A stretch of 64,000 nucleotides of DNA from Glandiceps talaboti (Eukaryota; Hemichordata; Enteropneusta; Spengelidae). The DNA lies in NCBI RefSeq assembly GCF_964340395.1, contig NC_135559.1, positions 1,160,001 to 1,224,000 of the forward strand, written 5' to 3'. Both the position numbers and the translations under genes were made by a program. Each line of letters opens with the position of its first letter. The first letter of the stretch is position 1. The notes beneath the pieces were generated by a model that did not search any database, had not been told where the DNA came from, and was given only the letters and a program-made list of their open reading frames with translations. This document shows positions 10,301 through 64,000 of the stretch, in pieces.

Positions 10301-13300
10301 AGAACGGACTAAGCTTGGAAAGCAAGAGAGTGAATGACATGAAGACCCAAACTGGAAAATAATGGTCAATCTGAGGTATACAGAATCATTACTTGACCTT
10401 TGTATCTAGGAATGTATAACTTTTTACTTAAACTTTCTAAAATATAGGTGAACCTGATTTGGATGAAAAAAATAGAAAACGTAAACGTTCCAACTCCTCC
10501 AGTTCAATGGGTAGTGGTAAAGAGTTGCCTATTACTACAATGTCCATGCCAACACAAGTTATACCAACACCTAAAACTACAGTTCTGCCTTTCACAAGTC
10601 CTAAAGTAACTACATATATGACAAGTACAGGAGGAACAGGACTGTCTCCTGTCAAAATCACATTCAACAAAGCTACTGCCTCGGGATCTACCACCATTGC
10701 TCCAGCACAAAAGGTAACCATGGAATTCATGTGTAGAAGTTCAGAAACAGACGTGTGTTAGTTAAGATTTGAGAACAGAGGTGTATGTATGTATGTATGT
10801 GTGTGTGTGTGTGTGTGTGTGTGTGTGTGTGTGTGTGTGTGTGTGTGTGTGTGTGTGTGTGTGTGTGTGTGTGTGTGTGTGTGTGTGTGTGTGTGTGTTT
10901 GAAGGGGGAGAGGGTTAAGGTAAAACTTTATGGACTTCCATGCCTTGTACCTCAGTATTGGAGGGTTGATTGATTGATTGATTGGCTCCCAGTTTAAGAT
11001 AAATTTGGAAAAAAAGTTCAACGTTATGATAAGTTAGTGATTACATTAACTAATATTTGTACTTTTATATCTATAGGTTATCATTGTGTCTAGTTCATCA
11101 TCCTTTACACCAAGTATACTACAAAGATCACAGAGTGTACCTAGTAATAAAACTTTAACATCCCCAGTAACTACTACAGTAACAAGACCATCCATTATAT
11201 TTACAACAACGGCATCATCAACAAGTGGTAACCCAAGTATTGTCACAGTAACTCCATCTAGTAGCACTATACTATCACCTAATATACCAGGTAAGTAGTA
11301 AGAATAACCCTCTTTCCATCCCAACTCTGCAATGTCCACATAGCCCACAGGTGTTATGTTTGACGGGCCTGGATGATTCTGGGACAGCCTGTGGATGGAC
11401 TCACTGGGAAACCCTTGACAATTCCACAGTGATGTGATAAAGAGCATGTAACATAGCCCTATCATGTAGTCCCAAACATTAATGGACATCTGTAGAAATG
11501 TGTGATTGTGTTCATGTATGTACACTATATGTCTGCATAAAAAGCAAGTCACTGGGAGTGATTCACTGCCAATAAGAAACCCCAAAATCTTTACAGTGGC
11601 TATTAAACGATGTATCAAATCCAGTGAGACTGACTGCAGGGTTGTATTAGCATAACTGAATTGATAAGGTCCAGTAGTGCTATAGGCATGGTGAGGGATC
11701 TGTCCATTCATTTGTCTGTCTGTCTGTCTGTCTGTCTGTCTGTCTGTCTGTCTGTCTGTCTGTCTGTCTGTCTGTCTGTCTGTCTGTCTGTCTGTCTGTC
11801 TCTGTCTGACTGTGTATGTGTGTGTATGTGATGACTTAAACTCTTGTCATATAGGTAATCTATTCACAAAGTTTCATCCTAATGATAGTAATCCATCCAT
11901 AATTCTATGAGATATACTGCTAACAAACAAATCAGTAAACAAGCAGACAGACAGACAGACAGGTGAAAACATAATCTCCATTCAACAATGTTGGGTAAAA
12001 TTTCAAATATACATTACAACCACACTGACTATTATGTATACTGATGCTGAAAATTTGAAGAATTAGTTTTGCTCTTTGTGATTTATTCCAGTTTGTGTGG
12101 TTGGCACAGCAACAACAGCATTTCTGACTAACACTTTAAGTGCAGCCAAACCAAGACCCAAGACAGTGAGTCGACAGAAGACTAAAACCATGACAACCAG
12201 TGCATCATCTGTCCTAGCAACAGCAGCGTCAGCTGTAGGTTCTGGAACATTAGTAACACAGTCACCTATGACAAAGATCATCACCACGTCTGCTAGCACA
12301 GGAGCTACAAAACCATCTATACAGATTGTCCAGGAACATGGTAAGTACAAATATAGCACAGGTTTGGTTACTCAGAATTTCTCTCAAAACACCATTCGTA
12401 TTATAGCATTTCTACCATATTCAGACTTTTCACTGATAAAATATGTATATTGATTTATAGATTTGTTATCATTTGGATGTTGATTACTGTCCACCGCTAT
12501 GAGGGCACTAGTAGATGTCTATTACCCCAGTGGCTGTTATACAGCATCTGTTTCCCAAGGCTTTCATCTTTGGAGAAATAACTTCACAAGGGGTAATATG
12601 ATGTCTACTAGTGCCCAAATAAGGCCAGGCAATAAGTGTTTGTTCAGGTACGTATTCTTCCAGAGTTAAAGCAAATCACTGATAGTACTCCCACACCACA
12701 TGAATAGTACCCTATGTAAACTAGAATACAAAAAGTGCCTGCTCTATGTAAATTGAGTTCACTATGGGTCAGTAGTCCATACCACGTGACATGATCTATG
12801 TCTCACTGAAGGCTGTATGGAAACAATGTGTCATAAACACTGGTATATCATGTCAATCTAATATCTTAACAGGTGTGAAAATTATCACCCAGACTGTACC
12901 AGGAAATAAAATACTACCGAAACCAATCACCATTGGATCTGGCACAGGAACTCCAGTTGTCATGGTGACAACTACTATACCAACAACTGTTGTCATGACA
13001 ACAAAACCTGTGACATGTACAGCAGGTAGGCAGACAGTCATATTTGTGAATTGAGTTTATTCTGTCTTTTTATACTTTTCATTGCTGTTTTGTTCATCAC
13101 ATCTTTTTTCAAGTAATGAAAGACCGTTATAACTTATAACCCCATGTAAGGTCACACAGTCGTATGTTCTACATTCAATCTCAATATATTTTGAATGTCT
13201 TCTATTTGGTTCACAAAGTAACCAGTCTTTTACATTCCCATGAAATATATTTCTGATGTTTTCTATTAGGTTCACAAAGTAACCAGGTGGTAATCAACCC

Positions 13301-16300
13301 AGCAGGTGGAACAAGAATAGTAACAACACCATCTGTGTGTAGTAGTGGAAAGACAACACCAAGTGCAGGAAACATTATAACTGTAACACCAAAGACTTTA
13401 CAAGCATGTGCTGCTAAAACAAATGGTATGATAACAACTTACTTGTCTCTACAATGATCAAAAGTAATTGTCTATGTGTGCTGACTGTCAAATCACATTA
13501 TCCTTTAGATACAATCTCTCTTGATGGTCTTATTAAAGCTGCACTAGCTGCAACTTTTTTTGTATCAGGCACCCAGCAATATATTCAATGAAAATTGTTA
13601 AAACACCGACAACTAGACATTGTACAAGTTATTTAAGAGGTCTATTTTATCAAAAGAAGTGAAGGAACACTTTAAAATCAAGATCACATTGGAGTGCAGA
13701 TTTTAGGATGCGGACCCAAATATTAGTTTGATTTATTGTATCGTAAAAAATAACACTAATGGGAGAATGTGGGATAGAATCGTGGGGCTTTAAAGTCCAG
13801 GGTTTCAATCCCAGGTTCTCACATTTGTGTTATCTTATCAGGTAAAGGCCAGGGATTCAGTGCCAGGTTCTCACATTAATGTGACTGTCATTTTATCAGT
13901 AGTGCCGCAAAGATTAACTTGGTATTATTCTTTTGTTCTGAGTCAGCTTTTTCTGTAGTTTTGCAAGACAACAGTTTGTAACATGTAAATGTTAACTCCT
14001 TATCCGTACTAGACCTTTTAACCACCAATGCATGTAGAGGATTTGTAAGATTTACATATCTCAGTGTGAAATTAAATTACTTGTGTTCTGTCTTTAATAG
14101 TTGTTATGACCAAGCCATACATTGCAGGAGCTTCTACAGCTGGTAAATCTAATGTTATTATAGTACAGAAACCACCAACAAAGACAGTTGCTGTAACCAA
14201 GACTACTCCTACTTCCGTCATACAGAAATCACTACAGGTAAGAAATGTACCAACCAATTACCATGTGTCCTTGATGTGTCCTTTTCTCTAAGTGTTTTTT
14301 TTCTTGCTTTCTTTTCACTTTTGTCTCTTTGTATTTTGTAACATTTCCTTATAATTATTAAAAAAAATATCTGGAATTGCAATAAAAGTACTCTACCAGC
14401 AGTTATTAAAAAAGAAGAAGAAAAAAGTGGATCAACTACATGTATTATCATAAACTATCAAATTAATACAGCATATTTACTCAAACATAGTTACCCATGT
14501 TTTTGGAACTTATTCAACTGATTTGATAATTAATAAAGTTTGAACTTGAAAACTCTGGATAAAGATATGTATTTATTCATGAGCTTTTAGAATCAGCTGA
14601 GTCCTTTGAGACACAATCTTCCAATGAAATGGGGATTTTGTTGGAGGATCATTACTGAAAGATCATGTGATCAGGTACTCAGATCATGTGATCAGATACT
14701 TGGATCATGTGATCAGGTACTCATATCATGTGATCAGATACTTGGATCATGTGATCAGGTACTCATATCATGTGATCAGATACTTGGATCATGTGATGAG
14801 GTACTCAGATCATGTGATCAGGTACTTATTTGAGTCTGAAAGCTTATTAATCAATACATAATTTTTATCCAGCATTACCAAGTTCAAACCTTTTCACTAA
14901 TCTAACCAAATGTATTTGATCTTATATCAGGAGGGTAACAAGACTATCATTGTGACAACAAGCAGTGGAAACCAAAGCAGGGTAGTGTCCACTTTACCAA
15001 CAGCACAACCATTGCAAGGAGCTTTGAAGTCTGTGTCAGGCAAGACACAGGTGAGTCAATAAAGAGAGAATTATATACAGCTGAAAGAGAAAACTAGCCA
15101 GGGAAAGAAGGAAAAACAGTTTTATATATCACCACAAAAAAGTAATCAGTCAGTTGATCAAAAGATAAGTTAAATTTAACCACAAAAAAATAATATTCAA
15201 TCGATCAATCATTCAATCAAATAATCAATCAATCAATCAATCAATCAATCAATCAGTTACATGCCTGCTTTCCCCTGTGGTGATACCTTTGCACAATTTA
15301 TTCCAAATTAGGCCAATAATAAACCATGATACTTTGCATATGTAATTCAAACTTAGCACAAAGATATATCACCATGCACATTTTCATATGCCTACATGAC
15401 TGAATTAACTAAGCTAACCTGAATATGATAGTCATGCTGTGATATGATAACATATGGCTGTTAGGTCTAAAAAATATTGTTTCCTTTCGGTTACCGGACC
15501 ACTCCTAATTTTTCACTGCTGACCCTAAACTTTTTTATGTATTCAAGAATAAGATGATAAAATTGTGAGGTCTCATGAGAAATAGTGGATGCGAAAACTT
15601 ACATCAACTTAAAAAGACAATATAAAACTGTTCTTCCAATCTGTTATGGCTGTAACAAGAAACCAATAACACAGAGACCATATGGAAAACAACAGAAATC
15701 ATAACTACCTGAACTAGATAAAAAAAAAACCTTAAGAATCCAAAACAAATCTACCCACCCCACCTATTCTAAAACTGAACGTTATTGGAACCACATAATT
15801 TTTTTTATGGCGTTATAGTTATACATGTATCTACTACAGATAATATATAATTCTGACTCTAATAATGTTTCTACATCCCCATTCTGTTATCTACAGCAAG
15901 TAGTAATACGTCCTAAGCCATCAGGAATGCAAGCACCGATATCAGAACAAGTTGAACGAAGGTCAAGTTCACCAATTCTGACAGAACTTATCCAGCAATC
16001 ATCTGAACAAGATATGACAACTGTAATATCAACGTCACCACAGACTGTTACAGAACAACATGTATCACCAGGATATGTTGATGAAACTAGCTCTATTAGT
16101 TCAGCTACTAGTGATAATAAAGGTATGTGTAATAAGTTGGCTCAACTAGTCCCACTAATATAGAACAACTTACCTGTTGAATTACGTCAGTCTCCCACTC
16201 ATGGGAAATTCATATTCTGTTTGCTAGGGCATTTTAGACACTCTTACTTGGAACCTTACTTGTTCAGCAGCTTTGAATATTAATGTGGATTGTATTCAGG

Positions 16301-63981: not shown

Positions 63982-64000
63982 TTGTCAAGTCTACCTGTGT
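63810..64000 (-). repeat. 38-bp array that multiplies a centrobin splice donor
   Basis: On the minus strand each unit reads GGTAGACTTGACAAG/gtatg, then tacagggtaagaaacaca. It encodes ...RLDK and a donor exactly where centrobin needs the exon that precedes TLAKVVEGW. Exon ends fall at 63981, 63943 (variant), 63905, 63867 and 63829. The array continues past the right edge, so the true exon is probably outside or at the edge. Confidence 0.88.

Follow-up and report, generated by a model that had tools for sequence, protein, structure and literature searches.

Minisatellites straddling coding borders of EMSY and centrobin in the acorn worm Glandiceps talaboti

We analysed a single 64-kb window of DNA from the enteropneust hemichordate (acorn worm) Glandiceps talaboti, in which two genes, EMSY and centrobin, carry short tandem arrays that begin across the ends of coding exons, so that splice sites or, in one case, the stop codon are repeated in tandem. 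The window is the whole stretch of 64,000 nucleotides examined, and all positions are counted from its first letter. The two array-bearing genes and the seven arrays in question are as follows (a slash marks the border, here and below):

7347..24453, + strand: EMSY gene, 21 coding exons, with an N-terminal ENT domain and a C-terminal bromodomain
13183..13286, + strand: diverged two-copy duplication of 61 bp at the EMSY acceptor 13269/13270
19694..20037, + strand: 30-bp array of 11.5 copies, starting over the EMSY donor ATG/GTAAGT (19701/19702)
20891..22253, + strand: 59-bp array of 23 copies at the EMSY acceptor TTACAG/C (22212/22213)
23428..23589, + strand: 73-bp duplication of 2.2 copies at the EMSY acceptor TTACAG/ACTGG (23516/23517), within the bromodomain, with a decoy acceptor at 23444
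24426..25019, + strand: 31-bp array of 19 copies, its start lying over the final EMSY codons and the TGA stop (near 24449) and the rest extending into the 3' untranslated side
47172..64000, − strand: centrobin gene, 18 coding exons within the window, running on past 64000
57376..57703, − strand: 55-bp array of 6 copies at the centrobin acceptor GTGTAG/G (57387/57386)
63806..64000, − strand: 38-bp array with 5.1 copies in the window, extending beyond the window end, its exon outside the window

The spliced EMSY model encodes 1396 amino acids with a single terminal stop, and Pfam searches with two fragments of it returned the ENT domain (1.2e-26) and the bromodomain (4.2e-22). The model is 99% identical over its full length to the NCBI protein 'BRCA2-interacting transcriptional repressor EMSY-like' of Glandiceps talaboti; among the best 120 of 2717 matches the next were from Ptychodera flava (67%) and Saccoglossus kowalevskii (62%). 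When the NCBI protein was searched against the window with tblastn, 20 of the 21 exons were recovered at >85% identity. For centrobin, 17 exons sharing one open frame gave a model of 993 amino acids that is 100% identical to LOC144442630 of Glandiceps talaboti, and the last exon (47348-47175, − strand) was placed by tblastn with the NCBI protein, which recovered 17 of the 18 exons. Relatives of this protein among the matches listed were 'Centrobin-like' of Saccoglossus and 'CNTROB' of Branchiostoma.

Six arrays in the window were read directly as straddling a coding border: four at acceptors (61, 59, 73 and 55 bp), one at a donor (30 bp) and one at a stop codon (31 bp). An earlier note on this DNA had counted seven, with two donors; its count stands for these six, and the 38-bp array is likely to be the second donor, its exon lying out of view. 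Four of its five in-window units read CTTGACAAG/GTATGT (LDK in translation), the remaining unit having TTTGTCAAG, and the annotated centrobin protein reads ...VMIEQLDK/TLAKVVEG, with EQLDK directly preceding the exon at 63044. Because LDK precedes the next exon in the annotated protein in just this way and the units carry the same bases before a GTATGT, the array was probably seeded on a centrobin donor lying beyond position 64000. At the EMSY donor, GTAAGT is kept in 8 of the 12 units of the 30-bp array. The 31-bp array contains ACATGA 19 times, and the annotated EMSY protein ends in ...VRSPPKT. Among the acceptor cases, the 61-bp duplication shows 88% identity across 43 bp at lag 61 and includes 17 exonic bp (lag scan); it was absent from the output of Tandem Repeats Finder (TRF) at score 40, and its upstream copy has no AG (TTTGG, compared to TTAGG in the used copy). 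In the 59-bp array, the AG is present in all 23 copies and 17 of the 23 are identical to the consensus, the first copy being 5 sites off consensus and the last copy equal to it. In the 55-bp array, it is the exon-adjacent copy that is furthest from the consensus register. Unit length and consensus differ among the seven arrays, as the earlier note had stated, which supports independent origins.

We then determined which copy is used. At all five splice borders in view, the junctions in the NCBI EMSY and centrobin proteins correspond to the exon-adjacent copy, with SHG/ATG (30 bp), ALN/LLQ (59 bp), KLE/TGL (73 bp), TAG/SQSNQ (61 bp) and EER/LDD (55 bp), and no extra intron between duplicated splice signals was seen in the annotated EMSY and centrobin joins at the arrays. 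There are 28 upstream acceptor copies that bear an AG, and each of the 10 that were tested led to a frameshift or a stop. These comprised the nearest four of the 22 upstream copies in the 59-bp array (the first gave a frameshift, the other three a stop), the only decoy of the 73-bp duplication (a frameshift and a stop) and all five decoys of the 55-bp array (an in-frame stop each). The claim that the acceptor copy adjoining the full exon is the one that keeps the frame is therefore true for the copies tested (4/22, 1/1 and 5/5, respectively), the 61-bp upstream copy having no AG to use. The 30-bp donor array behaves differently: the frame stays open with any of its first three donors, which would add 0, 10 or 20 residues, while the fourth unit is without a GT and the fifth lies beyond a TAG.

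We asked whether the strength of the core splice site could account for the use of the exon-adjacent copy, and scored the sites with weight matrices built from 37 donors and 37 acceptors, taken from EMSY and centrobin only. The eight intact donors of the 30-bp array each scored 11.1 bits. In the 59-bp array, the used acceptor scored 5.1 bits, the same as 17 of the 22 decoys, with the other five decoys at 2.9-4.7 bits, and in the 73-bp duplication the decoy (7.8 bits) was stronger than the used site (6.7 bits). Only in the 55-bp array was the used site the highest (8.6 bits versus 5.1-8.1 bits for the five decoys). Core site strength as the cause of decoy skipping was therefore ruled out for the 30-, 59- and 73-bp arrays, where decoys are equal or higher. 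Since decoys in these three arrays are as strong as the used site, the choice of the correct copy must, we infer, rest on something else, exon context for example. As a separate observation on the 59-bp array, a further AG lies ten bases downstream and, in 19 of 22 upstream units, reaches at least 9.0 bits (versus 5.1 bits for the acceptor), so that acceptors are paired array-wide.

We consider it probable that these arrays are junction minisatellites of the type named 'mirages' in amphioxus, which would have arisen when a local segment was duplicated in tandem, the array grew on its noncoding side and selection preserved a single intact border. The first step would be the tandem duplication of a short segment straddling the end of an exon, probably where short repeats present by chance allowed slippage or exchange, and the array would then enlarge on the intron or 3'-untranslated side through ordinary minisatellite turnover. 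Purifying selection would keep the border in working order in a single copy, namely that attached to the full exon; the remaining copies would be decoys that are ignored in normal splicing, their presence presumably neutral and mis-spliced products mostly carrying early stops. The exon ends copied in several arrays are conserved in relatives: LLQRVSRYRG and SNQVV in Ptychodera and Saccoglossus, the C-terminal VRSPPK in Ptychodera and, for the 38-bp case, EQLDK/TLAKVV in Ptychodera and Branchiostoma. This conservation indicates that at those borders the array was derived from the exon. Short repeats were also found at the seams of two arrays, AATTGTTT in both intron and exon for the 73-bp duplication and TAATAAAT in the unit and in the exon continuation for the 59-bp array, which would fit slippage or exchange; they were judged by eye because mismatches broke the exact lag runs in four of four two-copy cases.

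We next compared the overlap of arrays and borders with that expected by chance, using 78 borders in 34,502 bp of EMSY and centrobin and two null models. One model placed the whole array span at random and the other placed only the ancestral unit length, which we think is the fairer model of origin. Arrays were taken from a TRF list and from a lag scan. The TRF list holds merged rows from both genes with a period of at least 9 and a score of at least 50, using the longer period where TRF offered several; it leaves out microsatellites (periods 1-8) and rows below score 50 and includes two arrays between 63045 and 64000. In the lag scan, low-complexity loci were dropped and one lag was kept per place; the scan clipped the spans of the 59-, 31- and 55-bp arrays, which were set by hand to the TRF limits, giving 6 of 19 loci crossing a border compared to 5 of 19 unedited (in the unit-length test of the unedited set the locus at 51764 was assigned lag 31 instead of 93). 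With the array-span null there was no excess, either for the TRF list (5/18 crossing, 7.21 expected, P 0.93) or for the lag-scan loci (6/19, 7.63 expected, P 0.86). With the unit-length null, 5/18 crossed in the TRF list when 1.76 were expected (P 0.025) and 6/19 in the lag scan when 2.50 were expected (P 0.030), both values being nominal and post hoc. These became 0.033 (TRF) and 0.040 (lag scan) when frame-breaking exonic placements were removed, and 0.0055-0.011 when the 38-bp array was counted as crossing. The unedited lag scan (5/19) gave P 0.079 with the unit-length null and 0.112 with the frame filter, and leaving out the stop-codon array gave P 0.07-0.10. A border hotspot was rejected as a settled claim, as the outcome varies with the null and with the array list. 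The excess is not taken as established because the pattern had been picked for looking striking, and in two genes.

Most TRF arrays (12/18, counting the 38-bp array, whose border is out of view) are without exon bases, and one of the 18 is wholly exonic and in frame. Two arrays in centrobin serve as contrast cases:

52959..53244, − strand: in-frame 33/66-bp coding minisatellite, wholly within a centrobin exon and also present in the annotated protein
51792..51946, − strand: 31-bp array lying ~35 bp into the intron that follows the centrobin donor at 51981, the border not being crossed

The earlier note had offered two explanations for the arrays at borders, tolerance by selection and a mutational process that favours borders. 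Tolerance fits without extra assumptions, because 12 of the 18 TRF arrays are free of exon bases and the single exonic one has an in-frame 33/66-bp unit. The alternative, in which slippage or breakage near the AG or GT or near pyrimidine tracts (for example) seeds duplications at borders, is in our view unlikely. It draws on the unit-length excess in both array lists, the more so with the 38-bp array counted, but that excess is a post hoc one at P ~0.03, from two genes and small numbers, which appears with one of the two nulls (P 0.86-0.94 by array span) and weakens in the unedited lag scan or when the stop-codon array is set aside; moreover, one of the affected borders is that stop codon, which has no splice site. 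Several observations nevertheless count against duplication with tolerance as we have described it. By unit length, contact with borders is 2.4-2.8 times that of random seeds (P 0.025-0.04), an excess that tolerance alone would not lead one to expect. Nor does core strength explain the skipping of decoys: the used site is matched by all seven intact decoys in the 30-bp array and by 17 of 22 in the 59-bp array, and is exceeded by the decoy of the 73-bp duplication. At the 30-bp donor, neither Ptychodera nor Saccoglossus conserves the exon end, so that the exon is a less certain source there. Finally, the use of copies was read from NCBI proteins and not from RNA, and those proteins may rest in part on prediction.

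The arrays could also be functional, with decoys tuning the output of EMSY and centrobin through alternative splicing or decay of stop-containing transcripts, or yielding in-frame EMSY variants. The many intact decoys (AG in 23/23 units of the 59-bp array, GTAAGT in 8/12 of the 30-bp array) and the 0, 10 or 20 in-frame residues that the first three 30-bp donors would add are what such a role would call for. However, recent homogenisation also predicts intact decoys, the 61-bp upstream copy is without an AG, and a single Glandiceps protein per gene, using the exon-adjacent copies, appears among the matches listed (the best 120 of 2717 for EMSY; 23 for centrobin); we regard a functional role as very unlikely. 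Slightly less probable still is that an artefact of assembly has created the extra copies or given a wrong count of them. The 59-bp array, with 17 of 23 copies identical, is of a type prone to miscounting by assemblers, but distinct variants occur among the copies of several arrays, both annotated proteins are listed with a 25-Mb contig (25,030,103 bp), and an artefact would have to explain seven different units.

Duplication at the border with one copy kept intact, the origin that we prefer, has a close counterpart in amphioxus. The 'mirages' described there are junction minisatellites of the globin genes BflGb6 and BflGb9 that are reported to be spliced regularly and have been suggested as a source of new introns (Ebner et al. 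2010, PMC3087553), with Adh3 and troponin C named as further cases (troponin C is cited in PMC3902484). Their traits are a boundary-spanning unit, location at donors or acceptors, undisturbed mRNA splicing, concerted evolution that spares the end copies, and length polymorphism including somatic instability. The Glandiceps arrays resemble them in that the unit spans the exon-intron boundary in five splice-junction arrays (61, 30, 59, 73 and 55 bp) and in that both border types are hit, with four acceptors and one donor read and the second donor likely. Unlike the amphioxus cases, they lie in a hemichordate and not a cephalochordate, reach up to 23 copies and include one on a stop codon. In lancelet PGBD5, imperfect 60-bp and 108-bp tandem repeats lie over intron/exon boundaries, where re-examined Sanger and new Illumina data bear out the sequence, and the authors hold that the repeats do not interfere with splicing (PMC3902484); these share with the Glandiceps arrays the tandem repetition of a junction and differ in gene and phylum. 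A potato intron is reported to have originated in a duplication that ran across an intron-exon boundary (PMC4974935), and tandem duplication supplying splice signals has also been described in Drosophila and in human segmental duplications (PMC2891723, PMC2812944), but the annotated Glandiceps proteins skip the copies without a new intron. The portion available of a paper on amphioxus huntingtin mentions tandem repeats and says nothing of repeats at borders (PMC2206037). The idea of a general route to new splice sites, voiced in the earlier note, is thus already in print for amphioxus (PMC3087553). No earlier junction minisatellite of a hemichordate was found in the open-licence literature, among the matches listed.

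The present arrays therefore extend to a hemichordate a structure named in lancelets, with a high density in two neighbouring genes and a case at a stop codon. Many near-identical acceptors of which one is productive amount to a natural test of the choice that splicing makes between equal sites, and such arrays also test whether the duplication of junctions feeds intron gain. It is conceivable, if rather improbable, that exon borders are true hotspots of minisatellite birth in acorn worms and lancelets, and that non-vertebrate deuterostomes would hold a large and changing stock of spare splice sites that is avoided by exon context and not by strength.

The NCBI EMSY protein and the window model differ in two places, an exon join and a 13-residue gap, both away from the arrays. 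At the exon 9/10 junction (window 14237-14937), the NCBI protein reads QVRNGNKT and the window model QEGNKT; Ptychodera (QEISGNKT) and Saccoglossus (QESTKT) side with the latter. In exon 14 (window 18630-18670), the 13 residues TGVKGQMDTVRGQ are encoded in the window and missing from the NCBI protein. The 39 bases concerned have GGTCA direct repeats on either side and can be read as GT...AG, and the difference could reflect allelic variation, a very short intron or an artefact of transcript alignment. The EMSY bromodomain (window 22213-24453) is present alongside ENT. According to precomputed domains for the best 120 of 2717 matches, both domains occur in hemichordates, lancelets, echinoderms and molluscs, while the vertebrates listed have ENT only, which may reflect loss of the bromodomain in the vertebrate line.

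Elsewhere in the window, a stretch of ~42 bp (TTCTAAGTTGGATCTCTTTGCCAA...) occurs twice in a centrobin intron (window 59019-59207), the two copies being 147 bp apart and 90% alike. A CFAP97/Hemingway-like exon lies at 43146-43505 (+ strand); this fragment was searched in order to obtain the borders of a third gene and gave no match at E 1e-25. A CEP19 gene lies at 5039-5533 (− strand), and thus three of the four genes recognised in the window (CEP19, CFAP97/Hemingway-like and centrobin) have centriole- or cilium-linked names.

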